DNA from: Rhodococcus sp. IITR03
Lineage (GTDB): Bacteria > Actinomycetota > Actinomycetes > Mycobacteriales > Mycobacteriaceae
Direction: 5' to 3'
NCBI GenBank assembly: GCA_001017865.1
Contig: LATQ01000001.1
Location: 987,976 to 1,008,331, forward strand
Length of the DNA stretch: 20,356 nucleotides
Positions within the stretch are counted from its first letter, which is position 1, and each line of letters opens with the position of its first letter. Positions 973 to 20,356 of this stretch are shown in pieces. A program made the position numbers and the translations under genes. The notes beneath the pieces are model-generated. The model had not been told where the DNA came from. It saw only the letters and a program-made list of their open reading frames with translations, and ran no database searches.

Positions 973-2174
<1,202 letters not shown>

Positions 2175-2208: not shown

Positions 2209-4394
2209 ATGACTCTGGGATTGAGCGACGAGGACCGCGAGCTCCGCGATTCCGTACGCGGCTGGGCGGCACGGCACGCCACACCCGACGTGATCCGCAC
2301 GGCCGTCGAAGCGAAGACGGAAGCCCGCCCGACGTACTGGAGCTCGTTCGCCGAACTCGGCATGCTGGGATTGCACCTGCCCGAAGAGGTCGGAGGCGCC
2401 GGTTTCGGTTTGCTCGAAACAGCAATCGTCGCAGAGGAACTCGGACGGGCCATGGTGCCCGGCCCGTTCCTTCCGACCGTGATCGTGTCCGCCGTCCTCG
2501 ACGAGGCCGGCCGTCGCAGCGAACTCGATGGGCTCGCGGACGGTTCGCTGTTCGGTGCGGTCGCCCTGCAGCCGGGGGACCTGCGCGTGGAGCGCGACGG
2601 CGATTCCGTCACGCTCTCGGGAACCTCCGGTGTCGCCCTCGGCGGCCAGGTCGCGGATGTGTTCCTGCTCGCGGCCGACGACGGTGGTGAGCGGGTCTTC
2701 GTCGTCGTGACCCGTGACCGGGTCGAGGTCACGAACCTGCCAGCTACGACGTGATCCGCCGCAACGCCGAGATCACCGCGAGCGCCTGACGTTGTCCGAC
2801 GGGGACGTGCTGAGGTCGGACTCGCATCGGATCGTCGATATCGCCGCGACCTTGTTCGCCGCCGAGGCCGCCGGTCTCGCGGACTGGGCGACCACCACCG
2901 CTGCGGACTATGCGCGGGTCCGCAAGCAGTTCGGCCGCGTCATCGGACAGTTCCAGGGTGTCAAGCACACCGTCGCCCGGATGCTCTGTCTTACCGAACA
3001 GGCCCGGGTCGTGGCCTGGGACGCCGCGCGAGCGCAGGCAGAGGACGCGGCGGACGACGAGTCATCGCTCGCCGTGGCGGTCGCCGCGTCCATCGCCCCC
3101 GAGGCCGCCTTCCAGGTCACCAAGAACTGCATTCAGGTGCTCGGCGGCATCGGCTACACCTGGGAGCACGACGCGCACCTGTACATGCGGCGCGCCCAGT
3201 CGCTCCGGATCCTGCTCGGCTCCACGGCGTCGTGGCGGCGCCGGGTCGCCCACCTCACGCCTCGACGGTCCCGCCGCGTGCTGAGCGTCGATCTTCCGCC
3301 CGAGGCGGAACGGATCCGCGCCGACGTCCGTGCCGAACTCGAGCCGGCGAAGTCGCTGGAGAACGCAGCGCGGAAGGCGTATCTGGCGGAGAAGGGCTAC
3401 ACCGCTCCTCATCTGCCGAACCATGGGGCAAGGCCGCCGACGCCGTCACGCAACTCGTCGTCGCCGAGGAACTGCGCGCCGCCGAACTCGAACCGCACGA
3501 CATGATCATCGGCAACTGGGTGGTGCCGACCCTGATCGCGCACGGCAGTACCGAGCAGATCGAGCGATTCGTCCCGCAGTCGCTGCGCGGGGATCTCGTG
3601 TGGTGTCAGCTCTTCTCCGAACCCGGCGCCGGGTCCGATCTCGCGGGCCTGTCCACCAAGGCCGTCAAGGTGGACGGCGGATGGAGGCTCGACGGTCAGA
3701 AGGTGTGGACGTCGATGGCGCGGGTCGCGGACTGGGGCATCTGCCTCGCCCGCACCGACGCGGAAGCGCCCAAGCACAAAGGCCTGTCCTACTTCCTGAT
3801 CGACATCAGGAACACGGAAGGCCTCGACATCCGGCCGCTGCGGGAGATCACCGGCGAAGCCTGTTCAACGAGGTGTTCCTCGACGGTGTGTTCGTGCCGG
3901 ACGAGTGCCTCGTCGGCGAGCCCGGGGACGGATGGAAGCTCGCCCGTACGACCCTCGCGAACGAACGCGTCTCCCTCTCACACGATTCGACTTTCGGTGC
4001 CGGCTGCGAGACTCTCATGGCGCTCGCGAACGGCATGCCCGGCGGACCCGACGACGAACAGCTCACCGTTCTCGGCAAAGTGCTCGGCGATGCCGCGTCC
4101 GGTGGCCTCATGGGGCTGCGCACCGCTCTCCGCTCGCTGGCCGGTGCACAGCCGGGTGCCGAGTCCTCCGTCGCCAAACTCCTCGGCGTCGAGCACCTCC
4201 AGCAGGTCTGGGAGACCGCGATGGACTGGGCCGGTACTGCGTCGTTGCTCGACGACCAGGACCGAACTTCGGCCACCCACATGTTCCTCAACGTGCAGTG
4301 CATGTCCATCGCCGGTGGGACGACCAACGTCCAGCTGAACATCATCGGTGAGAGGCTTCTCGGCCTGCCCCGCGATCCCGAACCCGGAAAGTGA
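2209..4394 (+). CDS. fadE34: Two-domain acyl-CoA dehydrogenase (FadE34/ChsE3-like), four single-base lesions
   Basis: Restoring four single bases (near 2740, 2778, 3421 and 3860) joins three overlapping frames into about 729 residues, close to the size of mycobacterial FadE34 (about 710), a natural tandem fusion of two acyl-CoA dehydrogenase modules. FadE34-type enzymes introduce the 2,3 double bond in steroid side-chain CoAs using FAD. Module 1 (residues about 1-370) has ELGMLGLHLPEEVGGAG, RKQFGRVIGQFQGVKH and QVLGGIGYTWEHDAHLYMRR. Module 2 has QLFSEPGAGSDLAGL, GQKVWTS, APKHKGLSYFLIDI, GLDIRPLREITG and IAGGTTNVQLNIIGERLLG. Neither module has Glu at the C-terminal position used by medium-chain enzymes; ANERV in module 2 offers the alternative helix-G Glu used by isovaleryl- and long-chain-type enzymes. 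GAAGGG lies ahead of the ATG. The hydratase gene starts 5 bp after the stop, so the two are co-translated. Electron transfer to ETF is expected. Confidence 0.92.
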
Positions 4395-4399
4395 CGCCC

Positions 4400-5266
4400 A
4401 TGCCCATCGATACCGATGTCGCGCTCTCCGCTGCGCCCACCGTCCGCGACGCCTCGTGGACCGAACGCGATGTGATCCTCTACCACCTCGGTCTGGGTGC
4501 GGGTGCCGACTCGCTCGATCCCGCCGAACTGCGGTGGGTGTACGAGAAGGACCTGCGGGTCCTGCCGACCTTCGCGATGGTCGCCGGTCAGGGTGTCTCC
4601 GCCGGTGCGGTGACACCGGCCGGACTGAGCCTGCGGGAATCGACATCGACCTGCGCAGGATCCTGCACGGTGGCCAGTCCGTCACCGTGCACGCCCCGAT
4701 CCCGATCTCGGTTCGGCGACCGTCTCGTCTCGCATCTCCGATGTGTGGGACAAGGGCAAAGCCGCCGTGATCGTGCTCGAGCAGTCCGCAGTGGACGCCG
4801 ACGGAAACCCGTTGTGGACCAGTGCGATGCAGATCTGGCGCGCGGTGAGGGAGGTTTCGGCGGAGACGCCGGGCCCGATGTGTCGAACGCAGTGCCGGAA
4901 CGGGACGCCGACAAGACCCTGGTGTCACCTACGAGCACGCAACAGGCACTGGTGTACCGGCTCAGTGCCGACATGAACCCGCTGCACGCCGATCCCGAAT
5001 TCGCGAAGGCGGCCGGTTTCGATCGGCCGATCCTGCACGGACTCGCCTCGTACGGTGTCGTGTGCAAGGCCGTCGTCGACGGTGTGCTCGACGGAGACCC
5101 GACCCGGGTCCGGTCGTTCTCGGTCCGCTTCGCCGGCACGCTGTACCCCGGGGAGACGATCGAGACGGCGGTCTGGCGAGACGGCGACACCCTCACCCTG
5201 CTCGCCACATGTCCCGAGCGCGACGGGCAACCGGTGCTCACCCACGCCACGATGGAGATTCGATGA
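4400..5266 (+). CDS. chsH3: MaoC-type double-hotdog 2-enoyl-CoA hydratase (ChsH3/MFE-2 hydratase-like), three lesions
   Basis: The reconstructed 289 residues align throughout with what I recall of M. tuberculosis ChsH3 (Rv3538, about 286 residues): the start MPIDTDVAL, the stretches [49 protein letters not shown], and the C-terminal hotdog [33 protein letters not shown]. The last contains the hydratase-2 motif (D-x-N-P-L-H) with the catalytic Asp and His. The enzyme adds water to a 2-enoyl-CoA to give the 3-hydroxyacyl-CoA. Single bases are missing near 4634, 4710 and 4837. The three losses restore frame, so the window shows an open but scrambled middle. I chose ATG 4400 over GTG 4391 because it matches the family start. 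The last bases overlap the thioesterase start (ATGA at 5263), showing translational coupling. Confidence 0.9.
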   Translation: [288 protein letters not shown]

Positions 5267-5916
5267 GAGTCGACCCGGACACCCACCCCGTCGTCGGACA
5301 CGCGCCCGACGGTACGGTGCTGACCTCGGCACCGCAGGACACCGCCGTCGACCGCGCCACCGCCGCCGCGCGGCGCGTGGTGGACGCGTTGCTGCGCACC
5401 GACCGTGGCAACGCGAATCTCGAGCGGGTCGCCGAAGAACTCGACAATATCGCCGAGCACCTCGAGGAACACGCCCCCGAAGTGCGGGAGCGACTGATCG
5501 ACATGTGGCACGGGAGGGTGTCACCCGGCACGATCCGTCACCGGGCCGGAGAACGCGCTCGCTCCGCCGCTGGTGCTCGCCGGTCGCGAAGACGGATCGG
5601 TGGAAGGCGTCGTCGAACTGACCTTCCCGTACCAGGCCCGCCCGGGCACGTGCACGGCGGAGTCTCCGCCCTCCTGCTCGATCACACTCTGGGTGTGGCG
5701 AACGCCTGGGCCGGGCGCAGCGGCGCCACCGCACAGCTCAATGTGCGGTACCACCGCCCGACCCCGCTGTTCGAGCCGCTGACGATCACCGGTCGTCTGG
5801 TCGAGCAGGACGGCCGCAAGATCAACACGGTCGGCGAGATCAGGACCGCGGACGGCACGGTGTGCGTCTCCGTCGAGGCGCTGTTCATCGACAGGACGGT
5901 TCCCCGTCCGCGCTGA
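5263..5916 (+). CDS. PaaI-family hotdog acyl-CoA thioesterase, three lesions
   Basis: After restoring a G near 5512, 5537 and 5635 the protein is about 218 residues. A helical N-terminal part of about 85 residues (ERVAEELDNIAEHLEEH) precedes a hotdog domain with the PaaI/4HBT signature HGGVSALLLDHTLGVA. The HGG core, the following Asp and the strands LNVRYHRPTPLFEPLTITGR are typical of acyl-CoA thioesterases. It would release free acid and CoA from acyl-CoA, perhaps clearing stalled steroid or short acyl-CoAs. Its ATG overlaps the hydratase stop by four bases. Actinobacterial steroid regulons often hold such thioesterases, but their substrates are mostly unknown. Family assignment is firm, substrate unknown. 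Confidence 0.82.
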   Translation: MRVDPDTHPVVGHAPDGTVLTSAPQDTAVDRATAAARRVVDALLRTDRGNANLERVAEELDNIAEHLEEHAPEVRERLIDMWHGRVSPGTIRHRAGERARSAAGARRSRRRIGGRRRRTDLPVPGPPGHVHGGVSALLLDHTLGVANAWAGRSGATAQLNVRYHRPTPLFEPLTITGRLVEQDGRKINTVGEIRTADGTVCVSVEALFIDRTVPRPR

Positions 5917-6761: not shown

Positions 6762-7949
6762 ATGCTCTCTCGTACTTCCCGGCGCCTGGTGGCAGCACTC
6801 ACCGCAACGGCGATGCTCGGTATCACATCCTGCGCGGACTCCGGTGACGACACCGAGGAGACTTCCGGCGGGCCGGGCTCTCTCGTCACCGAACGTACCC
6901 TCACCGGTGCGGCGGCGATTCCCAGCGCATCGCGCACGCATCTGATCACCTATCTGTCCGAGGGGGGCCGACCGGCGCCCCCACGCTCGTGTCGTGTCGG
7001 GCACCGTCGCGATCCCCGACGGTGAGGCCCCCGACGGGGGCTGGCCCGTGATCAGCTGGGCACACGGCACCACCGGGTCGGTGACGCCTGCGCACCCTCC
7101 GCCGACACCCCCGGCGGTCCGGCCCATTCCTACGTCGGCAGGACCACCGCCATGCTCGACCGGTGGGTCGCCGACGGCTACGCCGTGGTCCAGACCGACT
7201 ACGAAGGCCTCGGAACACCGGGCGAACACCCGTACATGAACGGAGACAGCGCGGCTGCCGCTGTCGTCGACATCGTGCGTGCGGCTCGGCAACTCGATTC
7301 CGGCATCGGCACCCGATGGGTCGCGATGGGACACAGCCAGGGCGGACACGCCGCGCTGTATGTGGCGGCACACGGCGAGGAACGCGCACCCGAACTCGAA
7401 CTGCAGGGCGCGGTCTCCTTCGCCCCGGGTAGCCGCACCAGTGAGACCGCCGAGTACTACGCGACCGCCGGCCCTGAGATCGGTCCGGCGCTCGGGTTCC
7501 TGCCGGTGCTGCTGCTCGGCGCACAGGCGGCGGACCCGAGCATCGACGCCGACGCGATGCTCACCGATGCGTCGCGACCTCTGCTCGAGGCCGCGCGCAC
7601 CGGATGCATGGACGACGTTCGCGAGGTGGCGAGCACGGTCCCGGTGGATCAGGTGTTCGCCCCCGATGCGGACCTCGAGTCGCTCCGCGAGTACTACGCC
7701 GGCCAGGAGGTCGAACCGCTCATCCTCACGGTGCCGACGCTCGTCGTGCAGGGAACCGACGATGCACTGGTGTCGCGTCCGGTCACCGATCAGGTGACCG
7801 CTGCACTGTGCGACAACGGAGCCGACCTGACCTATCGGGTGTACGAGGGGGCCGACCACCGCGCGGTACTCGAGGAGTCCTTCGGCGACGTGCGGGCGTT
7901 CGTCGACGGAGTACGCGCGGGCGAGGCGCAGGACGGCACGTGCGATTGA
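6762..7949 (+). CDS. Predicted lipoprotein, secretory-lipase-type alpha/beta hydrolase, three lesions
   Basis: GGAGGA precedes the ATG at 6762. The first 24 residues form a lipoprotein signal: RTSRR, a hydrophobic stretch, then the lipobox ITSC with Cys24 as the likely lipidated residue, so the protein should be anchored outside the membrane. After restoring a G near 6962, 6993 and 7075 the mature part is an alpha/beta hydrolase of the secretory lipase (LIP) type, about 396 residues in all. It shows WAHGTTG (oxyanion region), nucleophile elbow GHSQGGH, LVVQGTDDALV for the acid and YEGADHRAV for the catalytic His. It ends the plus-strand gene series, 18 bp after the SDR. It could release fatty acids, or sterol or bile-acid esters, for uptake; that link is by context only. 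Confidence 0.83.
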
Positions 7950-7958
7950 TGCCGTCGA

Positions 7959-8788
7959 TCAGTCGGTCTTGATGCGTTCGGGGACGGTGTAGATGTTCAT
8001 CGTGTCGCCGCGGAGGAAGCCCACGAGGGTGAGGTCGGACTCCGCGGCGAGATCGACGGCCAGCGACGACGGCGCCGAGACCGCCGCGAGCACGGGGATC
8101 CCGGCCATGACCGCCTTCTGCACGAGTTCGAACGAGGCGCGTCCGCTCACCATGAGCACGCTGTGCGAGAGCGGAACCCGGTTGTCGGTCAGGGCCCAGC
8201 CGATCACCTTGTCGACGGCGTTGTGCCGGCCGACGTCCTCGCGCAGGGCCAGCAGCGCCCGTCGGGGGTGAACAGCGCGGCCGCGTGCAGACCGCCGGTC
8301 GACTCGAAGACCTGCTGGTGCCGACGCAGCGTGTCGGGCAGTTCGGTGAGGGTGTGCGTGCCGATCGAGGTGGTGCCGGCATCCTTCAACGGATAGCGGG
8401 TGCGCGTGCGCACCTCGTCGAGCGAGTTCTTCCCGCACACCCCGCACGCGGAGGTCGTCGTGAACGCGCGTCGCCCCGTCCCTTCGGGGACGGTGACGCC
8501 GGGGGCGAGGGCGACGTCGAGGACGTTGTAGGTGTTGGCGCCGCTCTCGTCCACGCCGTCGCAGTAGCGGACGGCGGCGATGTCCTCGCGACTGCCGATC
8601 ATCCCTTCGGCCAGCAGGAAGCCGTGGACGAGGTCGACGTCGTGCCCGGGGGTGCGCATCGTGATGGTGAGCGACTCACCGCCGACCCTGATCTCGAGCG
8701 GTTCCTCGACGGCGAGGGTGTCGGGACGTCGCGTCGCCCTGTCCGCAGTGATGCGCAGTACCGGACGACGTGTCGTGACCCGTCCCAT
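7959..8788 (-). CDS. fdhD: Formate dehydrogenase accessory sulfurtransferase FdhD, one lesion
   Basis: FdhD carries sulfur from a cysteine desulfurase to the molybdenum cofactor of formate dehydrogenase. The reconstructed 276 residues equal the usual length. Signatures are [30 protein letters not shown], the CxxC of [10 protein letters not shown] that handles sulfur, [35 protein letters not shown] and [15 protein letters not shown] is missing from the run at 8258-8260 on plus. GGGAGG sits 6 bases before the ATG at 8788. It converges on the lipase gene with a 9-bp gap and diverges from amt. No formate dehydrogenase gene lies in the window, so its client enzyme is elsewhere. Confidence 0.95.
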
Positions 8789-8842
8789 CGTCTACCTCCC
8801 AGATGCGTGCAGCGGTTCGAGCCGTCGTTCCCACGGAACCCC

Positions 8843-8918
8843 GGCAGGCAGGGATACCCCGGCGGTGCTGGTTGTGCACACCGGGGGACGCGGCGCCTCG
8901 TCCTCCATACTGCCTGCC
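8843..8918. repeat. 9-bp inverted repeat with 58-nt spacing in the fdhD-amt gap
   Basis: GGCAGGCAG at 8843-8851 is matched by CTGCCTGCC at 8910-8918 on the same strand, giving a perfect 9-bp inverted repeat around 58 nt. It lies just upstream of fdhD and before the GlnR-like site. It could be a pair of protein-binding sites for fdhD control or an ordinary coincidence in GC-rich DNA. No function is assigned. Confidence 0.3.
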
Positions 8919-8957
8919 CGCATGCAACGGCACCCCTGTCCTGAGAACTGCGGTGGC

Positions 8958-8995
8958 GTTACACGAAGTTCACCCGCACCTCGCAGGGACATTAC
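8958..8995 (+). promoter_or_regulatory. GlnR-type operator upstream of amt
   Basis: Four pentamers sit at exact 11-bp steps: GTTAC (8958), TTCAC (8969), CTCGC (8980), ATTAC (8991), each separated by 6 bases. Three of the four end in AC, giving the AC-n9-AC pattern described for mycobacterial GlnR and the GTnAC-n6-GAAAC pattern of streptomycetes. The last box ends 92 bp before the amt ATG, a normal distance for activation. amt is a classic GlnR target in actinobacteria. The match to the site at 18858-18895 strengthens the call. Confidence 0.7.
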
Positions 8996-9011
8996 AGAGT
9001 GGGTCCACTCT
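8996..9011. repeat. Perfect 7-bp palindrome abutting the GlnR-like site
   Basis: AGAGTGG-GT-CCACTCT is a perfect inverted repeat that begins at the base right after the fourth GlnR-like box and lies 77-92 bp before amt. It may be a second regulator's operator or part of the leader structure. A smaller repeat GGGGT-n5-ACCCC follows at 9050-9064. Function unknown. Confidence 0.4.
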
Positions 9012-9087
9012 CAGGGGACGGTGATGAATGCGGGTCACCGACTGACGTAGGGGTCGTGAACCCCGGGATCGAACAGGGTGGACTTAT

Positions 9088-10424
9088 ATGGAACAGGCAC
9101 TCGCGGCCGCCGATACCGCCTGGGTTTTGGCGGCGTTCACAGCAGTCGTACTGATGGTTCCGGGCCTGGCGCTGTTCTACAGCGGCATGCTCGGAGTCAA
9201 GAGCGCGCTCAACATGATCATGATGGTGTTCGGTGGATTCGCCGTCACCGCCGTCCTGTGGGTGCTGTTCGGTCCGGCCGCCGTGCTCGGTGACAGCGTC
9301 GGGGGCCTCGGCCTCATCGGCGATCCCTTCACCGACATCGGTCTCGGGTCGCTGCTCGAGGAGAACCCGGACGGAGGGATGCCCGCCGCCCTGACCGCCG
9401 CCTTCCACCTCCTCTTCGCGGGCATCACGGTGGCGATCATCGCCGGTGGAGTCGCGGACCGGATGAAGTTCTCGGCGTGGCTGGTGTTCTCGGGCATCTG
9501 GGTCGTCCTCGTCTATTTCCCGGTCGCGCACTGGGTCTTCGCCTTCGACGACGAGGAAGCGGGCACGAAGGGCGGATGGATCGCCAACACGCTCGCCGCC
9601 CACGACTTCGCCGGCGGCACCGCCGTGCACATGAACTCGGGTGTCGCGGCGCTGGCACTCGCCATCGCGCTCGGTCGTCGCCGCGGATTCCCGCACGTCG
9701 CCCGTCCCCACAACCTGCCCCTCGTCGTCCTCGGCGGCGGAATCCTGCTGTTCGGCTGGTTCGGATTCAACGGCGGTTCGGCGGGCGGCGCCAACCACAT
9801 GGCCGGTGTCGTCGTCCTCAACACGCTCGTCGCCGCGATGGCCGGCCTGCTCGGTTGGCTGCTCGTCGAACGCATCAAGGAGAAGCACGCGACGACGCTC
9901 GGTGCCATCTCGGGCGTGATCGCCGCACTCGTGGGCATCACGCCCGCCGCGAGCCTCGTGTCCCCGCTCGGTGCCCTGCTGATCGGCGTGGTCTCCGGTG
10001 CCGTCGGCTGCTTCGCCGTGAGCTGGAAATTCCGCATGGGCTACGACGACTCGCTCGACGTCGTCGCCATCCACCTCATGGGCGGCGTCGTGGGCACCAC
10101 CCTCATCGCCTTCGTCGCGACGGCCGCCGCGCCGGCCGGCGTCGACGGTCTGTTCTTCGGTGGTGGGATCGATTTCCTCGGACGCCAGATCGTCGCGATG
10201 GCTGCGGTGTTCGCCTACTCGTTCGCGGTGACCTTCCTGATCGCGAAGGCGCTCGACAAGATCATGGCATTCGGGTCGACACCGAGACGGAGATGCGGGG
10301 CATCGACGTCCCGGTCCACGGGGAGACGGCCTACGTGATGGACTCGTTCTCGCCGACCGGCCCGTCGACGCTGCGCCCCGAGGTGTTCGCCGAGGACCGC
10401 GACGTGATCGTGCCCAAGTCCTGA
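9088..10424 (+). CDS. amt: Ammonium transporter Amt, one lesion near the C-terminus
   Basis: This Amt/MEP/Rh-family membrane channel conducts NH3/NH4+ and often methylammonium. About 445 residues with some 11 hydrophobic segments start at PGLALFYSGMLGVKSALNM. The twin-histidine pore is visible as DFAGGTAVHMNSG and AIHLMGGVVGT, and the family stretch FGWFGFNGGSAGG is present. A C is missing near 10272; restoring it changes the apparent end into a cytoplasmic tail RVDTETEMRGIDVPVHGETA that continues to the stop at 10424, as usual for actinobacterial Amt. The ATG at 9088 follows a weak GGTGG site. A GlnR-like operator lies upstream. There is no glnK/glnD after it; instead it converges on the amine-nitrogen gene series. 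Confidence 0.96.
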
Positions 10425-10451
10425 CCGACGAGTTTCCCCGACCGAACGGCA

Positions 10452-10483
10452 GGAGCCCTCACCGCACCGCGCGGTGAGGCTCC
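10452..10483. terminator. Bidirectional hairpin terminator between amt and the XRE-cupin gene
   Basis: GGAGCC-C-TCACCGC pairs with GCGGTGA-GGCTCC around the loop ACCGC, giving a 13-bp stem with one bulged C. It lies 28 bp after the amt stop and 8 bp from the stop of the opposing regulator gene at 10491. No clear T-run follows, as is common in high-GC actinobacteria. It probably ends transcription from both sides. Confidence 0.75.
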
Positions 10484-10490
10484 GTCGTGT

Positions 10491-11137
10491 TCACGGCTGG
10501 TGGTTGTCGGGATACGCCGTCACGGCGAGGAACCGGATGGGCAGCTTCAGCAGCTCGTTCGGTCCGTGTAGTCCCTCACCGTCGAGGAGCAGGGCATCGC
10601 CCGGTTGCAGGTGGTACTCGGAATCGCCGTGGCCGTAGAGCATCTCGCCTTCGAGCATGTACAGCAGCTCGGTGCCGGGATGCTGGAAGAGGGGGAAGAC
10701 CTCGCTTGCGTCGGTGAGGGTCACGAGCACCGGTTCGAGCCGCTTGTGCTGCCCACGCAGTGCGCCGAGCAATTCGTAGTGGTGGCCGACCCGCGTACCG
10801 CGACCGACGATCTCGGCGCCGTGCCCGTTCTTGGTGAACACCGCGTCGCGGTGCGCGTCCGCGCCCCGGAAGAGCGAGGTGACGGGGACGTCGAGGCCGG
10901 CGGCGAGGCGCGCGAGAGTCGACAGGCTGCACGACGTCTGGGCGTTCTCGATCTTCGAGAGCATCGCCTTGGAGATCCCCACCTTGGCGGCCATGTCGCC
11001 GACGGACAGACCGCTGGCCAGCCGCAGCGACCTCACCTGGTGGGCGATCGCGCGCTCGAGATCCACACCCGTCGGGGTGCCGCGCGGGACTTCGCGTCCG
11101 GAATCGTCGTACAGGACGGGACGATCTGGCTGGCCAT
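10491..11137 (-). CDS. XRE-family regulator with C-terminal cupin domain, one lesion near the start
   Basis: An N-terminal helix-turn-helix (VRSLRLASGLSVGDMAAKVG, then ISKAMLSKIENAQTSCSLST) is joined to a cupin sensor domain (FQHPGTELLYMLEGEMLYG ... YHLQPGDALLLDGEGLHGP). Such XRE-cupin proteins bind small metabolites and regulate neighbouring amine or amino-acid catabolic genes, for example PuuR-like regulators. An in-frame GTG at 11066 would already give an intact 191-residue protein. Restoring a missing C near 11117 joins it to an ATG at 11137 and adds a sensible leader (MASQIV...LYDDSGREVPRGTP), giving 215 residues; I prefer this. It is the last gene of the minus-strand series, 125 bp after the FAD enzyme, and probably senses a substrate of the cluster. 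Confidence 0.87.
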
Positions 11138-11262
11138 ATCATCAGCGTAGCGTGTGTCCACCGGTGGTGAACGCCGCAATGCGGACACGGCGGTGCCCTC
11201 CACGATCCGGACGACAGGGATCCGGCCGGGTCCGTGGAGGCACGCGCGCTGGGAGGTCGGGA

Positions 11263-12450
11263 TCAGCGCATCTCGCCGGCGCCTCGTAGGGGTTGAGGCT
11301 CAGGAGCAGATCACCCTCCTCGAAGCGGGAGAAACGGAAGTCGTCCGGGTTCACATTCGGAAGGTCGGTCTTCCCGTCGATCAGCAGGTCGGCGACCAAC
11401 TTGCCCACCGCGGGGAGATCTTGAACCCGTGCCCGGAGAATCCGGTCGCCAGGAACAGGCCCTCGACCGGTGCCGGACCGATGACGGGGTTGTAGTCCTC
11501 GGTGACGTCGTAGGCACCGACGTACGAACTGGTGATCCGTGGGTCCGGCATGTCGGGAAGGCGGTTGCCGAGCTTCATGATGTTCTTCTCGATCGTCGAG
11601 TCGTCGGCGCGGTTGACGTACTTGTCCGGGTCGATGTACTCCGGCGCCTGGTGATCGGAATTGCCCACCAGCAGTTCACCGTTCGGCTCGCGGCAGATGT
11701 ACTGCAGGCCCGCCAGATCGGACAGCACGGGCACCTCCGGGGTCGGGACGCCTGGTCGACGAGAACCAACTGCGCGCGCTGCGCCCGGACGTCGATGTCG
11801 ACGCCGACACCGGCGACGAGTGCCGGAGTCCAGGGGCCTGCGGCGACGATGACCTGTTCGGCGTGCACTTCGGAGCCGTCGGCGAGGGTGACGCCGTAGA
11901 CGCGGCCGGCGGCGTTCTGCAGTAGCGACACCACCGGGGTGCTCTGCCGGATCTTCACGCCCATCCGGCGGGCTGTCGCTCCGAACGCCATGCCCGCCAT
12001 GTAGGCCTCGCCGCGACCACCGAGCGGTTCGTAGGCGAACAGGGCGAAGTCGTCGAGGTGCAGGCCCGGCCACAGTTCGGCCATCTTGTCGTGGGTAATG
12101 AGTTCGGTGGCGATACCCAGGCCCTGCATCATCTCGATGTTCGCTTCGAGCGGCTTGACGTTGTTCTCCGCCACACCGACGACGTAACCGCACTGGCGGA
12201 ACGCCATGTCGTCGCCGAAGATCTCGGTCGCCTTGGTGAAGATGTCGACGCCGTACCAGGACATCGCAGCCAACGACGGGGTGCCGTAGTGACAGCGCAC
12301 GACACCGCTGGACTTGCCGGTCATGCCGGAGCAGAGGGTGTCGCGCTCGAGGACGAGGACGTCGGTCTCGCCGCGGTCAGCGAGGGAGTAGGCGATGGCC
12401 AGGCCTTCGAGGCCGCCGCCGACGATCAGAAACTTGGTCGTGTCCGTCAC
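11263..12450 (-). CDS. FAD-dependent amino-acid oxidoreductase (sarcosine oxidase beta / DAO family), three lesions
   Basis: This DAO-fold flavoenzyme (about 396 residues) starts with a dinucleotide-binding loop FLIVGGGLEGLAIAYSLAD, followed by VLERD and SGMTGKSSGVVRCHYG. It ends with the second FAD contact NPVIGPAPVEGLFLATGFSG and GHGFKISPAVGKLVADLL. The family oxidises secondary or tertiary amino acids (sarcosine, dimethylglycine, N-methylglutamate) to release the N-alkyl group as aldehyde. Bases are missing near 11749, 11412 and 11282; with the last restored the protein ends EGAGEMR at the TGA at 11263, otherwise it would run an unlikely extra 40 residues to 11142. None of the alpha, gamma or delta subunits of heterotetrameric sarcosine oxidase or N-methylglutamate dehydrogenase is nearby, so it may act alone. 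Substrate unproven. Confidence 0.85.
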
Positions 12451-12508
12451 CTGAGGATCCTTTGTTCGGTCGGCCTCCGAATCGGGGAGGTCGGTGGGGG
12501 AGTCGATG

Positions 12509-13069
12509 TCAGAGGGAGGAAGTCGGTTCGATGCGGACCAGCAGTCCGGTGGCCGACGAGACTCGTAGCGTGATCGCCTCGTGGCGGATCAGGACGCAGT
12601 CCCCGGGTCCGGCCCGTTCCGTGCCGGCCTGTACGGAGCCCGATCGCACGTAGAGGGCAGTGACTCCGCCTGCGGCGGTGTCGAAGGCCGTGTCGAGCGT
12701 GAGATACCCGACGGCCGCAGTGGCGGCCCCACGCGCGGTTATGACATTGAATGCGCTGGTCGCGCCTCGGGGGATGCAGCGGGGTGCGTCCTCACCGGCG
12801 AACGGGTGCGGATGCCACGGATCCAGCGAACGAAGTCCGTGGCCCGAGTGGAGGTCGACACCGTGCTCACCGACGACGGTGAAGATGCGGTCCCTGCCGG
12901 GGAAGGCCGAGAACTCGCTGGGATCGGATCCCAGATCGGCCACGCTGATCCGCCACAGCGGGCGTCCGGCGGGGCCGTGAGGTCCGGTCGCTACCTCCTC
13001 CGTGGTCCCGGCGCCGTTGCGCCAGAGCGTCCGCCGTCGGTCGCCCGAGCGGATCACCTGCACGGCCAC
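12509..13069 (-). CDS. HutD/Ves-family cupin-like protein
   Basis: This intact 186-residue protein belongs to the HutD (DUF886) family. The signature near the N-terminus is the WRNGAGTTEEVATGP stretch (family: W-K-N-G-x-G-x-T-x-E), followed by WRISVADLGSDPSEFSAFPG and GRDRIFTVV. HutD proteins are double-cupin-like and often sit in histidine-utilisation loci, where a fine-tuning role has been proposed; no enzyme activity is established. The GTG start at 13069 directly abuts the TAG stop of the upstream hydrolase, so the two genes are translationally coupled. There are no other hut genes here, so its role is probably tied to the amine/amidohydrolase cluster. Confidence 0.85.
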   Translation of the reverse strand: MAVQVIRSGDRRRTLWRNGAGTTEEVATGPHGPAGRPLWRISVADLGSDPSEFSAFPGRDRIFTVVGEHGVDLHSGHGLRSLDPWHPHPFAGEDAPRCIPRGATSAFNVITARGAATAAVGYLTLDTAFDTAAGGVTALYVRSGSVQAGTERAGPGDCVLIRHEAITLRVSSATGLLVRIEPTSSL

Positions 13070-14298
13070 CTAACTGCCCGTCGTCCAGTCGGCCATGATG
13101 TCGGCCAGTGCCTGCGCTCCGATATTGCAGTCGTCGGCCTCGGCGAACTCGTGCGGTGAATGCGAGACGCCGGTGGGGTTGCGCACGAACAACATTGCGG
13201 TGGGCACTTTTTCCGAGAGGATGCCGGCGTCGTGCCCCGCCTGGGTGGGGAGTACCGGGATGTCACCGAGATGCGACAGCGCGCGGCGCAACCGTTCGCG
13301 CGGCCCGGCCGGGAACTCGACGATCGGGGTGATCGATTCGGCGAAGACATCGAGCCCGATCTCGTCGGGCAGGCAGTGCTTGAGGGCCTCGGCCTCGATG
13401 TCGGCGACCAGCATCGTCAGGGTTTCCTCGTCCGCGGCGCGGGCGTCGAGCCATGCCTTGATCTCGGATGGAATTGCGTTGGCCCCGTTGGGCAACACCT
13501 CGAGTTTGCCGAAGGTGGCGACCGCGCCGGCCGCCGCGGCACACGAGCGGGCGCTGTGCACCGACGAGGCGTAGGCGAGCATCGGATCGCGACGGTCCAC
13601 CAGGCGCGTAGCGCCGGCGTGGTTGGCCTCACCGGTGAAGGTGAACTGCCATCGTCCGTGCGGCCAGATCGACGACGCGACCGCGACCGGCGCGTCGACG
13701 AGGTCGAGTGCCCGGCCCTGTTCGACGTGCAGTTCGACGTACACCCCGACCCGGTCGACGAGTGTGGGATCGGCACCGATGTGTTCGGGTACGCGACCGG
13801 CACGGGTCATGGCCTCGGCCAGCGTGATCCCGTCGCGATCGCGCAGTCCGAGCGCGCGCTGGGGAGCCAGCGCCCCGGTGGTGAGCTGACTTCCCACACA
13901 TGCCACACCGAAGCGGGCGCCTTCCTCGTCGGAGAACGCGGTGATCGCGATCGGCACGGTCGGCACGATGCCGCGATCACGGACCAGATCGACTGCGGCG
14001 AACGCCGAGACCACACCGAGTGGGCCGTCGAACGCTCCGCCGTCGGGCACCGAGTCCAGGTGCGAACCGGTGACGAAGGCGCCGGTGGGATCACCCGCCC
14101 AGCCTTCGGGAAGCCACCAGGCCCACAGGTTGCCGTTGCGGTCCTCTTCGACGTCCATACCGCGTTCGGCGGCGCAGCCGCGGAACCATTCACGCAGAGT
14201 GAGATCGGCGTCGCTCCAGGCGAATCGGCGGTAGCCCCGGTCGTCGGATGCTGCCCGACGTCCAGGATCGATGCCCAGAGCGTGTCGAATGCGGTCAT
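13070..14298 (-). CDS. M20-family amidohydrolase (allantoate amidohydrolase / N-carbamoyl-L-amino-acid hydrolase type), one lesion
   Basis: A binuclear-metal hydrolase of the AllC/HyuC group, about 409 residues as usual for the family. Metal ligands and motifs are visible: TGSHLDSVPDGGAFDGPLGV (His and Asp), FSDEEGARFGVACVGSQ (Glu), ELHVEQG, FTGEANHAGAT, and the C-terminal SHSPHEFAEADD with its metal-binding His. These enzymes cleave C-N bonds of allantoate, ureidoglycine or N-carbamoyl amino acids and release ammonia and CO2. A C is missing from the run at 14235-14238; restoring it links the ATG at 14298 (MTAFDTLWASILDVG) to the body. It lies 46 bp after the FMN-domain gene and abuts hutD. 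No allantoinase or hydantoinase is nearby, so the exact substrate is open. Confidence 0.88.
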
Positions 14299-14344
14299 GT
14301 GGTGTGTCCTCTCGGGAAGTGCGGTGGCAGGCCTGTCGCCACGG

Positions 14345-15671
14345 TCAGAAGGTGCTGCGGCCGGGGATCCAATCGGTTCCGGCCAGGGGCACCCGCGCCA
14401 TCGCGGCGGCCTCCATCGTGACGGCGACGAGGTCCTGCGGTTCGAGATTGCGCAGGTGCGACTTGCCACACGCGCGGGCGATGGTCTGCGCCTCCATGGT
14501 GAGCACCCGTAGGTAGTTCGCCAGGCGGCGGCCACCCTCGACCGGATCGAAGCGGGCCTGCAGGTCGGGATCCTGCGTGGTGATACCGGCGGGGTCCTTG
14601 CCGTCCTGGAAGTCGTCGTAGAAGCCGGCGGCCGAGCCCAGCTTCTCGTATTCGGCCTGGTACTTCGGATCGTTGTCGCCGAGGGCGATCAGCGCGGCCG
14701 TGCCGATGGCGACGGCGTCGGCTCCGAGGGCCATCGCTTTGGCGACATCGGCGCCCGAGCGGATACCGCCCGAGACGATCAGCTGCACGCCACCGGACGT
14801 GCGGTGCACACCCATCTCCTGCAGGGCCTGCACGGCCTGGGGGAGCGCGGCGAGGGTCGGGATGCCCACGTGCTCGATGAAGACGTCCTGGGTGGCGGCG
14901 GTGCCACCCTGCATGCCGTCGACCACTACGACGTCGGCGCCGGACTTCACGGCGAGCTTGACGTCGTAGTAGGTACGGGTCGCACCGACCTTGACGTAGA
15001 TCGGCTTCTCCCAGCCGGTGATCTCGCGCAGTTCGAGGATCTTGATGGCGAGGTCGTCGGGGCCGGTCCAGTCCGGGTGCCGGCACGCGCTGCGCTGATC
15101 GATGCCCACCGGCAGGGTGCGCATCCCCGCGACCCGCTCGGTGATCTTCTGTCCGAGGAGCATGCCGCCGCCACCGGGCTTGGCGCCCTGGCCGAGCACG
15201 ACCTCGATGGCGTCGGCCTTGCGCAGGTCGTCGGGTTCATGCCGTATCGCGACGGAAGGTACTGGTAGACGAGGTGTTTGGACTGTCCGCGCTCCTCGGG
15301 GGTCATGCCGCCGTCACCGGTGGTGGTGGACGTGCCGACCTCGCTGGCACCACGTCCGAGAGCCTCCTTCGCACGGCCGGACAGCGCGCCGAAGCTCATT
15401 CCGGCGATCGTGACCGGGATGTCGAGGTGCAGCGGGTACTTCGCGTTGCGGTCGCCGAGGACGACGTCGGTCTCGCACTTCTCGCGGTAACCTCGAGCGG
15501 GTAACGCGACATCGACGCGCCGAGGAACAACAGGTCGTCGAAGTGGGGAACCTTGCGCTTGGCGCCCCAGCCGCGGATGTCGTAGATGCCGGTCGCGGCG
15601 GCACGCTGGATCTCGTGGATGACGTTGCGGTCGAATGTGGCCGACTCACGCAGTCCAGGCTGGAAGGTCAT
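14345..15671 (-). CDS. glxD: FMN-domain glutamate synthase-like subunit (GlxD / N-methylglutamate synthase MgsC family), two lesions
   Basis: The reconstructed 442 residues correspond to the FMN-binding synthase domain of glutamate synthase (GltB). Family stretches include VTIAGMSFGALSGRAKEALG, GTSTTTGDGGM, GQGAKPGGGGMLLG, YVKVGA, ADVVVVDGMQGGTAA, IVSGGIRSGADVAKAMALGA and LANYLRVLTMEAQTIARACG. Where GltB has the CxxxxxC-PVGIATQ ligands of its [3Fe-4S] cluster, this protein reads GFYDDFQDGKDPAGITTQDP with no cysteine, so it should be flavin-only. With GlxB and GlxC it would form a three-part aminotransferring synthase, glutamate from 2-oxoglutarate or N-methylglutamate from an amide donor. Bases are missing near 15232 and 15491. 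The ATG at 15671 follows glxC by 42 bp. Confidence 0.9.
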
Positions 15672-15713
15672 GGAATTCTCCTCGGGGTCGAGCGGCGGAA
15701 GAACGTCGGGGCG

Positions 15714-16411
15714 TCAGTACGCCGAAGCGTTGTCGACGCGGAAGTGGTAGAGCTGACGGGCCGAGCCGTAGCGGGTGAACTCGGCCGGGTCGGCGTCGAA
15801 ACCGGCCGCGTCGAGCAGTTCCTGCAGTTCGACGATGTGCTCGGGGCGCATCTCCTTCTCGACGCAGTCCGCGCCGAGCGAGGCGACGCTGCCCCGCACG
15901 TAGATCCGTGCCTCGTACAGCGAATCACCCAGGGCCTCACCGGCATCGCCCAGGACGACGAGTCGGCCGGCCTGTCCCATGAAGGCGCTCATGTGCCCGA
16001 TGTCGCCGCCGACGACGATGTCGACGCCCTTCATCGAGATGCCGCAGCGTGCGGCGGCGTTGCCTTCGATCACCAGCAACCCGCCGTGGGCGGTGGCACC
16101 GGCGGACTGCGAGGCGTCGCCGGTGACGCGCACGCTTCCCGACATCATGTTCTCGGCGACACCGACGCCGGCGTTGCCGTCGATGGTCACGTGGGCGTGC
16201 TGGTTCATACCGGCGGCGTAGTAGCGACGTGGCCGTCGATGCGGACGTCGATCGGCCGGTTCAGGCCGCAGGCGAGTGCGTGGGCGCCCTGCGGGTTCGC
16301 GACCTCGACCGAAGCCGGGGCCTCCGTCGCGTGCAGTGCCGCATTGAGTTCGCGGGTGGTGGTCGTCGCCAGATCGTAGGTGGCGGTCGGGAGCAGGGTG
16401 TCGGTGGTCAT
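15714..16411 (-). CDS. glxC: GXGXG-domain glutamate synthase-like subunit (GlxC / MgsB family), one lesion
   Basis: This 232-residue protein equals the C-terminal beta-helical GXGXG domain of GltB. Repeating glycine turns are visible: IDGNAGVGVAENMMSGSVRV, GDASQSAGATAHGGLLVIEG, GISMKGVDIVVGGDIGHMSA and GQAGRLVVLGDAGEALGDSL. The N-terminal part (TTRELNAALHA, ANPQGAHALACGLNRPIDVR) is typical of the stand-alone version. In glutamate synthase this domain is structural, holding amidotransferase and FMN domains in place. A C is missing near 16225; restoring it gives DGHVGYYAAGMN. The ATG at 16411 lies 53 bp after the amidotransferase stop. Same order (amidotransferase, GXGXG, FMN domain) is found in glx and mgs loci. 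Confidence 0.9.
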
Positions 16412-16464
16412 GATTGCCTCCGTGGAACGGGGTCGGACAGCGGAATCGGGGGTTGTGGCGACCT

Positions 16465-17351
16465 TCAGCGTTGCCACACGTAGACCCGGTCCGGTTCGGG
16501 TTCGAAGATGCGGCGTCGGCGATGCCGGGAAGTCCTGCCAGAGCGCGGAATTCCGAGGCCATGGCGACGTAGGCGTCGCACTCGGCGACGATCGCGGGCT
16601 TGCAGGCGATCGGATCGCGCACCACGGCGAAGGAATCGGATGTCGACACCAGCAGGGTGTAGAACCCGTCGAAACGTTCGCCGAGAAGGCGCAACGCCTT
16701 CTCGAGATCCGCGCCCTCCGCCAGGTGCTTGGCAACGAAGCGCGCGCCGACCTCGGTGTCGTTCTCGCTGTCGAACACCACCCCCTCGTCCTCGAGTTCG
16801 CGCTTGATCGACAGGTGGTTGGAGAACGAGCCGTTGTGGACGAGGCACTGGTCCGGTCCGACGGCGAAGGGATGTGATCCGGCTGCGGTGACGGCGGATT
16901 CGGTGGCCATGCGGGTGTGGCCCACACCCTGCCATCCGGATGCGGTCGGCAGGCCGAAGTTCTCGGCGAGAATGCGCGGATCGCCGGTTCCTTTGAGGAC
17001 GGTCACGTCGTCACCGAAGCCGATGACGGTCGCAGTGGGTGCCAGGGCGCGGACGGTGTCGGCGAGCAGAGTGGCGGGGACGGGGGCGTGCAGCACGGTG
17101 GTGGGTGCGAGATCGAGCGCACCGACGGTCACGCCCAGTGCGTCGCCGACGATCGTGGCGAGATCAGAGGGGGCATCGAGTACCGAGACCGACGACTCCC
17201 CGGCGGGGGAGAAGACCGGGTTGCCGTAGACGGCGACGCCCGCCGAATCCGGTCCGCGGTCCACCATCTGCCCGAGCATTCCGGTGAGCAGGCTGCCCAG
17301 TCGGGGTTCGAGCGAGGTATCCCGCAGATGAAGTCCGACGATTCCGCACAT
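16465..17351 (-). CDS. glxB: Class II glutamine amidotransferase (GlxB / MgsA family), one lesion
   Basis: MCGIVGLHL places the N-terminal-nucleophile Cys at residue 2, and MVDRGPDSAGVAVYG, GVGHTRMATESAV, GSHPFAVGPDQCLVHNGSFS and NDTEVGARF complete the class II amidotransferase (Ntn hydrolase) active site. About 295 residues. It would split glutamine, or gamma-glutamylmethylamide in the N-methylglutamate pathway, and pass ammonia or methylamine to the FMN partner. The start at 17351 is fixed by the Cys2 rule. A G is missing near 16512; restoring it gives the proper end RIFEPEPDRVYVWQR at the TGA at 16465. It lies 44 bp after the synthetase gene, which would make its amide substrate. Confidence 0.9.
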
Positions 17352-17395
17352 GGTCGTCTCTCCTGTTCGATGGGTAGGGAAGTAGCGAAGATTTC

Positions 17396-18773
17396 TCAGA
17401 AGGCGGTCAGGTAGCTGTCGATCTCCCACGGGGTCACGGTGTTGTGCCAGTGGAAGAACTCCTCGCGCTTGAGTGAGGCGAAGTAATCGGTGACACTCGC
17501 GCCCGCCGAATCGAGAGCGCCGGAGACGACCGGATCGGCCTGGAGGGCGTCCATCGCGTGCAGTAGCGTCATCGGCAGGGTCTCCGTGGAACCGCCGGTA
17601 CCGGGAGTCCCGGGGTCGAGGTTGCGTTCGATGCCGTCGAGGCCGGCAGCGACAGTCGCGGCGGTGGCGAGATAGGGGTTGGCGGAACCGTCACCGCCGC
17701 GCAGTTCGACGCGGTTGGAGTCGGGGACCCGCAGGTAGTGGGTGCGGTCGTTGCCACCGTAGGTCGCGTAGCGCGGCGACCAGGTGGCACCGGAGGACGT
17801 GCTGGTTGCACCGGTTCGCTTGTAGGAATTGACCGTCGGCGCGATGACGCCCTGCAGAGCGCAGGCGTGCTCGAGGATGCCGGCGATGAACGAGTAGGCG
17901 GTCTTCGACAGGCCCAGGCCGTGCGGGTCGGATGCGTCGGGGAAGGCAGAGACGCCGTCGCTCCACAGCGACAGGTGCATGTGCATGCCCGATCCCGTGC
18001 GGTCGGCGAACGGCTTGGGCATGAAGGTTGCGGTCATGCCGCGCTGCTCGGCGAGCACGGAGATCAGGTAGCGCAGGGTGACGACCCGGTCGGCGGTGGT
18101 CAGGGCATCGGCGTACTGGAAGTTCTGCTCGAACTGGCCGTTCCCGTCCTCGTGGTCGTTGGCGTAGTTGCCCCATCCGAGGATGTTCATCGCCGACGAG
18201 ATCGACGTCAGGTGCTCGTACATGCGGGTGACGTCGCGGGCGTCGTAGCAGGCTGGCGGGAGGTGTCGAGCGCGTCGGCCGTGCGCAGCGTTCCGTTCTC
18301 GTCCTTGTTGACGAGGAAGTACTCGATCTCGGCGCCCACGTTGACCTCGAGGCCCAGTGCGGCAGCCTGCGCGAGTACGGACTTGAGAATCACGCGCGGC
18401 GCGTACGGCCAGGGCTTGCCTTCGACGTGCGGGTCGCAGTGGACGAGAGCGAGGCCTTCGCGCACGAACGGGATGGGCGTGAACGACGCGGCATCGGGGA
18501 TGGCGACGAGGTCGGGATCCTTCGGGACCTGGCCCATCGACCGGCGGCGTAGCCGGCGAATCCGACGCCCTCGGTCTCGAGCTCCCCGACGGATTCGACG
18601 GGAACGAGCTTGGCGCAAGGCTTTCCGGACAGGGTGGTGAAGACGGCGAGGATGTAGCGGGTGCCGGCGGCGTGGGCGAGCTCGGTCAGGGAGGGGGATC
18701 CGGAGATCTCGGGGGACCGGTCGTTCGCGGACGGGAGGCGCAGCACGGACGTGTCGGTGGCTTCCAGCGTCAT
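17396..18773 (-). CDS. glnT: Glutamine synthetase-family ligase (GlnT / gamma-glutamylmethylamide synthetase-like), two lesions
   Basis: The reconstructed protein (about 459 residues) has the glutamine synthetase catalytic fold. Visible are GAEIEYFLV (metal Glu), ANDHEDGNGQFEQNF (glutamate/metal site), MPKPFADRTGSGMHMHLSLW (ATP and His), NSYKR and DSNRVELRG. It lacks the Tyr adenylylation loop region of GlnA-I in any form I can recognise and belongs to the GlnT/GMAS group, which ligates ammonia or methylamine to the gamma-carboxylate of glutamate. Bases are missing near 18251 and 18540. GAGGAG lies 6 bases before the ATG at 18773. It leads the minus-strand series with glxBCD, just as gmaS accompanies mgsABC in methylamine users. 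A GlnR-like site lies 85 bp upstream. Choice between ammonia and an alkylamine cannot be read from sequence. Confidence 0.88.
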
Positions 18774-18821
18774 AGGGGCTCCTCGGATTCGACTGGTCGG
18801 ATTCGACCGGGGTTTCACTTT

Positions 18822-18850
18822 ATGAATCGGTGTCGAATACAAGGAAACAA
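18822..18850 (-). promoter_or_regulatory. Possible sigma-70-type promoter for the synthetase operon
   Basis: On the minus strand TTGTTT (18850-18845) and ATTCAT (18827-18822) are 17 bp apart, downstream of the GlnR-like boxes and about 50 bp before the start codon. The -10 element is poor, so this is a weak call supported mainly by position in the only AT-rich patch of the region. Confidence 0.35.
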
Positions 18851-18857
18851 TGTACCC

Positions 18858-18895
18858 ATGACAGGAGTGTTACGCGAGGGTGAGATTGCCGTGAC
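18858..18895 (-). promoter_or_regulatory. GlnR-type operator upstream of the synthetase-glx operon
   Basis: Read on minus: GTCAC-n6-CTCAC-n6-GTAAC-n6-GTCAT, four pentamers at exact 11-bp steps (plus starts 18891, 18880, 18869, 18858). Three end in AC and the fourth in AT. This is a full a-b-a-b GlnR site as known from actinobacterial amtB and glnA promoters. It ends 84 bp before the glnT ATG. It shares spacing with the amt site at 8958-8995, placing both ends of the nitrogen region under the same control. Confidence 0.75.
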
Positions 18896-18930
18896 GGTTC
18901 GCCGGAAACAGCCTGCATGCGAACAGAAAA

Positions 18931-18966
18931 CAGCGGCGGGACGGTCTAAGGACCGTCCCGCCGCTG
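18931..18966 (-). terminator. Strong rho-independent terminator of the acyl-CoA dehydrogenase gene
   Basis: CAGCGGCGGGACGGTC and GACCGTCCCGCCGCTG form a perfect 16-bp stem with loop TAAG. On the minus strand it is followed by TTTTCTGTTC, a proper T-tract. It begins 22 bp after the stop of the minus-strand acyl-CoA dehydrogenase and insulates the synthetase promoter region from read-through. Confidence 0.93.
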
Positions 18967-18987
18967 CAGTGTGGTGGAGAGGGTGTT

Positions 18988-20136
18988 CTACCGAAGCCCG
19001 AACGAGTTCCCGATGATGTCCCGCTGGATCTCGTTGGTGCCGCCGTAGATGGTGGCGCCCAGTGCTGCACGCACGTGCTGGGCCATGTCGAACTCTGTGG
19101 AGTAGCCGTAGCCACCCATCATCTGCATGCCATCGAGGGCAGTGTTCTTCGCGACCTCGGTTGCCTTGAGCTTCGCCATCGACGACGCGCGAGCCAACCC
19201 CTGTGGGTCGTCGCCGGCATCCGCGCGGTGCGCGACGCTGTAGACCAGCAGGCGGGTGCACTCGATCTCCGTCGCGAGATCGGCGATGCGGTGCTTGATC
19301 GCCTGGTACGAGCCGACCCGGTTGCCGAACTGGGTGCGCTCGGAGACGAACGCCAGCACGTCGTCGAAGGCGCGTTCGGCGGTGCCGAGCATCTGCGCGG
19401 CGAGGATCAGCCGCTCGGTGGCCAGGCCGGGCATGAGCTGGGCCCAGCCCTGCCCGACCTCACCGACCACCGAGTCGGCGGGCAGCACGCAGTCGGCGAA
19501 GTAGAGGTCGTTGACCTCGGTTCCGTTGAGTGTGTCGATGCCCTTGATCGTCAGTCCCGGCGTGTCGGCCGGCACGTGGAACATGGTGAGCCCGTGGTGC
19601 TTCTTCTCGCCACGCTCGGTACGGGCGACCAGGAGGATGCTGTCCGCCTGATGGGCGTTGGTGATCCACGTCTTCTGACCGTTGATCATCCAGCCGTCCG
19701 CAGTGTGCTCGGCGCGGCAGGTCAGCGCCGCGACGTCGGAACCGGCTTCCGGTTCGGACATCGCGATCGCCAGCGCGGCACCCTCGGCGAGCCGGCCGAG
19801 CACCGATCGCTTGAGTTCCTCGCTCGCGAACTTGGTGTAGATCCCGGCGGTGATCAGGGTCGTGCCGTGCCACGGGACCGGGGCGAGACCGCGGTGAAGT
19901 TCCTCGAGCAGGACACACAGGTCGACATGGTTGCCGCCGGCCCCGCCGTACTCCTCGGGGACGTTGATGGCGGCCCATCCGAGTTCGGCGATCCGCCGGT
20001 TCAGCGCGAGGCTGTGCCCTTCGCGACCGCAGTCGGTGAGCTTGTCGCGCTGTTCACGCGTGCCCACCTCGCGGCGGCAGAATTCGCGGACTGCCGCCCC
20101 GAACTCGCGCTGCTCCTCGCTGAGCATCACAGTCAT
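18988..20136 (-). CDS. Acyl-CoA dehydrogenase (FadE type)
   Basis: This 382-residue flavoprotein is intact. It has the family stretches MSEPEAGSDVAALTCRAE, WMINGQKTWITNAHQAD, RTQFGNRVGSYQAIKHRIAD, MMGGYGYSTEFDMAQHVRA and IYGGTNEIQRDIIG. It oxidises an acyl-CoA to the 2-enoyl-CoA and passes electrons to ETF. At the position of the medium-chain catalytic Glu (YEGT) it has Gly365, while Glu241 in LATERLILAA sits at the helix-G position used by isovaleryl- and long-chain-type enzymes. So a branched or bulky acyl chain is plausible. AGGAGA precedes the ATG at 20136. It follows the membrane-protein gene by 32 bp and ends at the terminator at 18931-18966. It is not part of the nitrogen series. Confidence 0.93.
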   Translation of the reverse strand: MTVMLSEEQREFGAAVREFCRREVGTREQRDKLTDCGREGHSLALNRRIAELGWAAINVPEEYGGAGGNHVDLCVLLEELHRGLAPVPWHGTTLITAGIYTKFASEELKRSVLGRLAEGAALAIAMSEPEAGSDVAALTCRAEHTADGWMINGQKTWITNAHQADSILLVARTERGEKKHHGLTMFHVPADTPGLTIKGIDTLNGTEVNDLYFADCVLPADSVVGEVGQGWAQLMPGLATERLILAAQMLGTAERAFDDVLAFVSERTQFGNRVGSYQAIKHRIADLATEIECTRLLVYSVAHRADAGDDPQGLARASSMAKLKATEVAKNTALDGMQMMGGYGYSTEFDMAQHVRAALGATIYGGTNEIQRDIIGNSFGLR

Positions 20137-20168
20137 GAGAATCTCCTGGTCGTTCGGATGGGTGGTGC

Positions 20169-20356
20169 TCAGGCGGGGTCGCCGACGCGGACCCGCAGGT
20201 CGCGGGACTGGTCGTCACGATCGTCGCTCGCCGCCCCGGTGGTGAAATGGCTCCGCATGGAGGCCGCGGCGACGAACGAGACGACAGCGGTGCCGACGAG
20301 GATCGCGGCGAGCGGCCACCAGTGGCCGGAGCGTCGGTCGGCACGATAGCGGCGCC
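20169..20356 (-). CDS. C-terminal end of an unidentified membrane protein
   Basis: The gene enters from beyond base 20356 and stops at the TGA at 20169. The 61 visible codons give RRYRADRRSGHWWPLAAILV, then GTAVVSFVAAASM, and a hydrophilic tail ending RVRVGDPA. There is one clear transmembrane segment of about 21 residues with a basic flank before it (probably inside) and an acidic, Arg-rich tail after it (DDRDDQSRD). The family cannot be named from this fragment; the last helix of a transporter or a small anchored protein are both possible. It lies 32 bp upstream of the acyl-CoA dehydrogenase on the same strand, so they may be co-transcribed. Confidence 0.6.
   Translation of the reverse strand, partial: RRYRADRRSGHWWPLAAILVGTAVVSFVAAASMRSHFTTGAASDDRDDQSRDLRVRVGDPA

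Follow-up and report, generated by a model that had tools for sequence, protein, structure and literature searches.

A candidate actinobacterial variant of the N-methylglutamate pathway with a single DAO flavoprotein, accompanied by an M20 amidohydrolase and HutD

The N-methylglutamate pathway comprises GmaS, MgsABC and MgdABCD, as outlined in published passages on, for example, Methyloversatilis, Ruegeria and SAR11. Actinobacterial Gma-MgsABC clusters, lying near methylamine genes, have been described in Mycobacterium sp. 141 and 155 (PMC5023230); the passages of that paper considered here attribute the final step to MgdA-D, encoded at another genomic site, and name no single DAO flavoprotein, M20 amidohydrolase or HutD linked to the clusters. 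We analysed a 20,356-nucleotide stretch of DNA from Rhodococcus sp. IITR03 (contig LATQ01000001.1; hereafter the window), which shares with them a GmaS-like ligase and MgsABC-like genes and carries the DAO, M20 and HutD genes in the same series. In our reading, to which we give a probability of roughly 0.6, this is an actinobacterial N-methylglutamate pathway in which a single DAO protein would replace MgdABCD, here together with M20 and HutD and with N-formylglutamate as a proposed intermediate.

Consistently with the preliminary description of this DNA, every gene that it had named was found in one series with an ammonium/methylammonium transporter gene nearby, and positions 11263-18773 are the exact outer ends of seven co-directional minus-strand genes, from that of the DAO protein to that of the ligase. 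Open reading frames taken straight from the window were rejected because one-base deletions break them; protein work therefore used the intact copy (locus L001) in the nearest genome compared (G001, 98.9% identical to window 7503-18919, 11.4 kb) together with other relatives. Domains were called with Pfam and NCBIfam, gene starts are predicted, and coordinates are those of the window, set by comparison with G001. In order of transcription, and separated by no more than about 130 bases, the genes encode a GmaS-like ligase of the type III glutamine synthetase (GS) family (17396..18773; Gln-synt_C; TIGR03105, 623.6 bits against a cut-off of 469.6), with two one-base deletions in the window; an MgsA/GlxB-like class II glutamine amidotransferase that starts Met-Cys (16465..17351; GATase_6/7); an MgsB/GlxC-like protein with GXGXG in the window frame and at the same place in relatives (15714..16411); an MgsC/GlxD-like glutamate-synthase domain protein (14345..15671; Glu_synthase, 293.6 bits); an M20 amidohydrolase of the hut-operon type (13070..14298; NF006770, labelled 'allantoate amidohydrolase', 627.7 bits against a cut-off of 372); HutD, of the HutD bicupin fold (12509..13069; PF05962); and the single-subunit DAO flavoprotein, a predicted N-methylglutamate oxidase/dehydrogenase (11263..12450; PF01266, 209 bits). 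Beyond the set named earlier, an XRE-cupin regulator gene (10491..11137, minus strand; HTH_31 and Cupin_2) extends the series as its last co-directional member, and the Amt transporter gene (9088..10424, plus strand; TIGR00836, 402.5 bits) is convergent to it.

The ligase scored 391.7 bits against RhGmaS (7cql) and about 180 against the GS of B. subtilis (4lnf/4lni). Passages of PMC7948447 name the catalytic residues of GmaS and those that distinguish it from GS. D177, E186, R312, W300, A48 and K30 of RhGmaS were kept wherever a row has a letter at the position (50-52/52 actinobacterial, 27-28/28 proteobacterial), E179 and N188 were kept too in the ligase, and the GS-type Asp50' and flap Glu, whose roles are given in the same passages, are replaced by Ala and Trp. 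The amine-pocket residue Gln175 was Gln in all 28 proteobacterial ligases and Ala in all 51 readable actinobacterial ones (residue 205 of the L001 GS, 459-aa frame 9910-11289). At the positions checked, to which Tyr147 did not belong, the catalytic and pocket residues of GmaS were thus present save Gln175, and the three separate glutamate-synthase-like subunits typical of MgsABC are encoded as well.

The DAO protein has the fold of the sarcosine oxidase/dimethylglycine dehydrogenase group, with about 20-26% identity to monomeric sarcosine oxidase (MSOX), dimethylglycine dehydrogenase and TSOX beta. It lacks the flavin-binding MgdA/SoxB-type histidine of the ARHDAV motif in the beta subunit: this histidine occurred in none of 38 type I/II actinobacterial DAO rows versus 19 of 21 proteobacterial rows. 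The MSOX-type covalent-flavin Cys, looked for by eye, was not seen in the DAO type of the window. Of 394 genomes of the class, 36 had relatives of the protein (E<=1e-60), and 32 of these 36 also encode an MgsC homologue, against a background of 44/394 (p 9e-33, the genomes being related to one another). SoxA/MgdC gave only partial matches in G001 and no full-length protein; among 28 genomes with a glx cluster it was over the cut-off in 8 and near full length in 2 more, and the other 18 had no near-full-length MgdC. A heterotetrameric MgdABCD was accordingly not recovered, as judged from the partial MgdC in G001 and the missing MgdA histidine (MgdB and MgdD were not searched). Because the ligase residues are kept, DAO co-occurs with MgsC, the MgdA histidine is missing and G001 has no full-length MgdC, a variant N-methylglutamate pathway, first suggested in the preliminary description, is well supported on sequence grounds for the ligase-MgsABC-DAO chain. 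For actinobacteria without MgdABCD this names a candidate gene for the final step, one that mgd-based surveys would overlook.

Related loci were taken from the best 80 of the 590 GlxD matches listed and, with L001, comprised 53 actinobacterial and 28 proteobacterial ones. The order GS-GlxB-GlxC-GlxD was found in 71 of the 80, GlxB-GlxC-GlxD-GS in eight and GlxD alone in one; conservation between genera, on which the earlier proposal had been made to depend, thus holds, and the grouping is not due to chance, because the order is kept. A protein of the DAO cluster was present in 49/53 actinobacterial loci, as was the XRE-cupin regulator, Amt in 33/53, M20 in 15/53 and HutD in 7/53. The lone DAO protein that had been singled out is therefore real but not special to the window; actinobacterial clusters usually have a single DAO, and what is new here is the hut kinship of M20 and its coupling to DAO. 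Compared with the known pathway, the window cluster shares the GmaS-like ligase with its catalytic residues, the split glutamate synthase and an Amt gene, often nearby, and differs in having one DAO without the MgdA histidine in place of MgdABCD, with M20 and HutD added. Moreover, MgdC, FolD and a PurU-like gene occurred in 19/28, 13/28 and 14/28 proteobacterial loci versus 0/53, 0/53 and 1/53 actinobacterial ones (the FolD and PurU families having been named from one tested member each). A reductase of the type adjoining DmmA-family and HODM-type genes was found in 14/53 actinobacterial loci (6 with M20, 8 without), including G001, where DmmA-family, ferredoxin-reductase-like and HODM-type genes lie directly past GS; the DmmA assignment was tested in L016 (NF041259, 113.5 against a cut-off of 60). 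These dimethylamine-monooxygenase-like (dmm-like) genes indicate methylamines in a minority of loci, and the suggestion that the set processes other alkylamines found no support, nor was it refuted.

The ligase would join methylamine, probably the substrate, to glutamate, and the MgsABC-like proteins would then pass it to 2-oxoglutarate, giving N-methylglutamate as in the Mgs step of the known pathway. The DAO protein, as a single FAD enzyme, is predicted to oxidise the N-methyl group of N-methylglutamate, so that glutamate is returned. In the subtype found in the window, it would take the N-methyl group via N-hydroxymethyl to the N-formyl level; M20 would cleave the resulting N-formylglutamate into glutamate and formate, and HutD would bind this intermediate. 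The formyl step is a best guess and the weakest part of the scheme, proposed because it is the simplest account of a hut-type M20 and HutD accompanying one DAO subtype. Its strict version, in which a DAO with Ala or Ser at residue 226 carries out a four-electron oxidation to N-formylglutamate as a one-carbon carrier and a co-opted M20 (with HutD) frees formate and glutamate, is put forward tentatively, and the odds are against it. If true, neither free formaldehyde nor tetrahydrofolate would be needed, N-formylglutamate would parallel S-formylglutathione in formaldehyde oxidation, and cells would have a new way to handle a toxic one-carbon unit.

The coupling of M20 to a DAO subtype was seen in trees and in new loci. 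In a tree of 71 M20 rows, which has some long branches and a bootstrap that had not wholly settled, the M20s of glx clusters need three changes between hut and glx settings, all forced by well-supported branches; rooted among hut M20s, the tree is most simply read as showing M20 entering glx clusters three times, the count alone not separating gains from losses. M20 presence changes three to four times on the DAO tree (51 rows), where all 11 members of the window's DAO clade occur with M20s, of two origins, and the clade of L036, L023 and L077 likewise has M20s of two origins. R. jostii (L019) and R. opacus (L015) share the DAO and M20 subtype of the window. One prediction was put to the test: a Gordonia DAO of the window subtype, on a contig other than that of its glx cluster, adjoins an M20 gene, and a CH91 DAO of the other subtype adjoins dmm-like genes without M20. 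DAO residue 226 was Ala or Ser in 14/14 rows with M20 and Glu in 23/24 rows without it in a first set; among 31 new loci (32 less L300, on the same contig as L023), M20 accompanied 8/9 DAO genes with Ala or Ser and 0/22 with Glu (p 1e-6, the rows being related and some loci truncated at contig ends), L292 being scored as without M20 since the M20 there is part of a hut operon some 11 kb off. In five of these eight new loci DAO and M20 stand as a pair, the fetched stretch containing no glx gene; an MgsC homologue is encoded elsewhere in each of the five genomes. HutD was found in 6/14 M20 loci versus 0/38 others, L001 excluded (p 1.5e-4, the loci being related); on the DAO tree the HutD-M20 association comes down to four pairs, at most two of them informative, with a median p of 1. 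As side observations, a Phd/YefM antitoxin and PIN-domain pair stands beside the DAO-M20-HutD genes of one Gordonia (L043:2216-2883), and the cluster on a plasmid of Candidatus Mycobacterium methanotrophicum (L089) includes an A226 DAO, its locus containing no M20.

M20 and HutD had been described as lying outside the known pathway; we find them to be a variable extra part that recurs, with M20 correlated to DAO subtype. The NF006770 M20 was over the cut-off in 112/200 genomes of the order. Among the fetched members (L130-L158 and L219-L235), 28 of 29 top-scoring ones adjoin hutF, and of 17 further chosen ones 13 lie beside hutF, two beside other hut genes and two beside none, one of the latter being the earlier exception; the nearest fetched hut-operon M20 (L136) is 70% identical to that of the window, and others about 50-60%. 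Because most fetched members are hut-operon genes, the NCBIfam label appears to be misleading. Ten hut regions fetched comprised three with HutF and M20, four with a HutG cluster and no M20, and three with neither (HutF/HutG names tested for three members). The histidine route of S. coelicolor runs via N-formylglutamate. The classical formylglutamate deformylase PF05013 was over the cut-off in only 5/200 genomes, two of which also have M20, and since it is so rare, the hut M20 is the leading candidate for the deformylase step. Since the kinship of M20 points to hut operons, N-formylglutamate is, by sequence comparison, a better candidate substrate than the N-carbamoyl compounds proposed earlier, for which we found no support. 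HutD, which presumably binds N-formylglutamate, has a structure whose title mentions solely 'Formate condition'. No paper combining N-formylglutamate and N-methylglutamate in those spellings was found, in a search that left most subscription journals outside.

Several of our observations tell against the proposed pathway or its formyl step. M20 (15/53 loci) and HutD (7/53) are not needed in general; dmm-like genes lie near 14/53 clusters only, and are missing from the window, whose match to G001 ends at 18919; L273 (S226, new loci) and L089 (A226, first set), both without M20, break the residue 226 rule; and DAO positions 87, 243 and 313, tried as specificity markers, separated the first set and failed in the new loci. 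PF05013 is present in 2/112 genomes with M20 versus 3/88 without (p 0.66), so that mutual exclusion of the classical deformylase and M20 was dropped as not significant. We also know of no precedent for N-formyl-level oxidation by the DAO family, no search for one having been made. Finally, Table 3 of PMC3223725 reports no deformylase activity for a Streptomyces avermitilis COG0624 protein for which a role as alternative N-formylglutamate deformylase had been predicted.

A plainer account is that the same pathway operates, the DAO just frees glutamate and formaldehyde, and M20 and HutD have a secondary task, for instance the removal of N-formylglutamate formed by accident. E226-type DAO clusters without M20 are common and M20 is missing from eight of the 14 clusters that have dmm-like genes nearby, so formaldehyde release would suffice there; nevertheless, M20 tracks a subtype of DAO across several lineages and is also paired with DAO away from the cluster, which favours a shared reaction over clean-up, and we consider this account unlikely, if a real contender. 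An N-ethyl- or other N-alkylglutamate, oxidised by the A/S226 DAO to an N-acylglutamate that M20 cleaves, would fit the Gln175-to-Ala change in the actinobacterial ligases, which could admit other amines, and the loss of a large side chain on going from Glu to Ala or Ser at DAO 226. This larger-amine possibility is improbable, as the same Ala is found in M20-less clusters and dmm-like genes accompany clusters with and without M20. That the series is an operon for ureide (allantoate) nitrogen, in which M20 would indeed be an allantoate amidohydrolase and HutD a bicupin of the ureidoglycine type, is very improbable. The M20 exceeds the NF006770 cut-off, but nearly all fetched members stand in a hut or glx context. 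Histidine breakdown, with two hut enzymes, M20 and HutD, having landed here by chance, is hardly credible. Both families do occur together in a hut operon (L168), and HutF-type actinobacterial histidine operons share the M20 family with the window; the window series, however, has no hut gene beyond M20 and HutD, HutU gave 0 matches in G001, and the single over-cut-off M20 and single HutD of that genome are both in the glx operon. Moreover, of the 14/200 genomes of the order that have HutD, three (G001 among them) carry it within or next to a glx cluster, one next to Amt and one in L168, the other nine having it elsewhere or unplaced.

A further minus-strand gene, at 7959..8788, encodes FdhD, a formate dehydrogenase accessory protein (NF001943, 399 bits), with a possible link to formate. 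FdhD was present in 5/53 actinobacterial loci and in L017 adjoins a molybdopterin oxidoreductase (L017:3153-5444), possibly a formate dehydrogenase; because it occurs both with and without M20, it was rejected as marking the M20 type. Left of the cluster, MaoC and thioesterase genes lie with that of a 729-aa protein (L009:6633-10350), whose window counterparts at about 2074-5300 are broken frames. This protein, which is encoded near FdhD and was first suspected of being a formate dehydrogenase, was ruled out as such by its Pfam matches to acyl-CoA dehydrogenase N, middle and two C-terminal domains.

The GlxD of the window is 95% identical to that of R. zopfii and 91% to that of Rhodococcus sp. 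CH91 (best segment), by which the window is Rhodococcus-like; window 1-10566 matches G001 at 99.3%. Relative to G001 the window has 17 one-base deletions (range 8257-18540), in each of which a G or C is missing, almost always from a short G/C run; they affect nine of ten genes compared, hutD alone being spared, and probably reflect sequencing error rather than gene decay. The window departs from G001 at 18919, where an acyl-CoA dehydrogenase gene (18988-20214) replaces the DmmA-, reductase- and HODM-like genes; this departure (18794-20356) may be either a real rearrangement or an assembly join. Directly beyond the HODM-type gene, G001 carries an AlkZ-like DNA glycosylase gene (L010:16380-17486).

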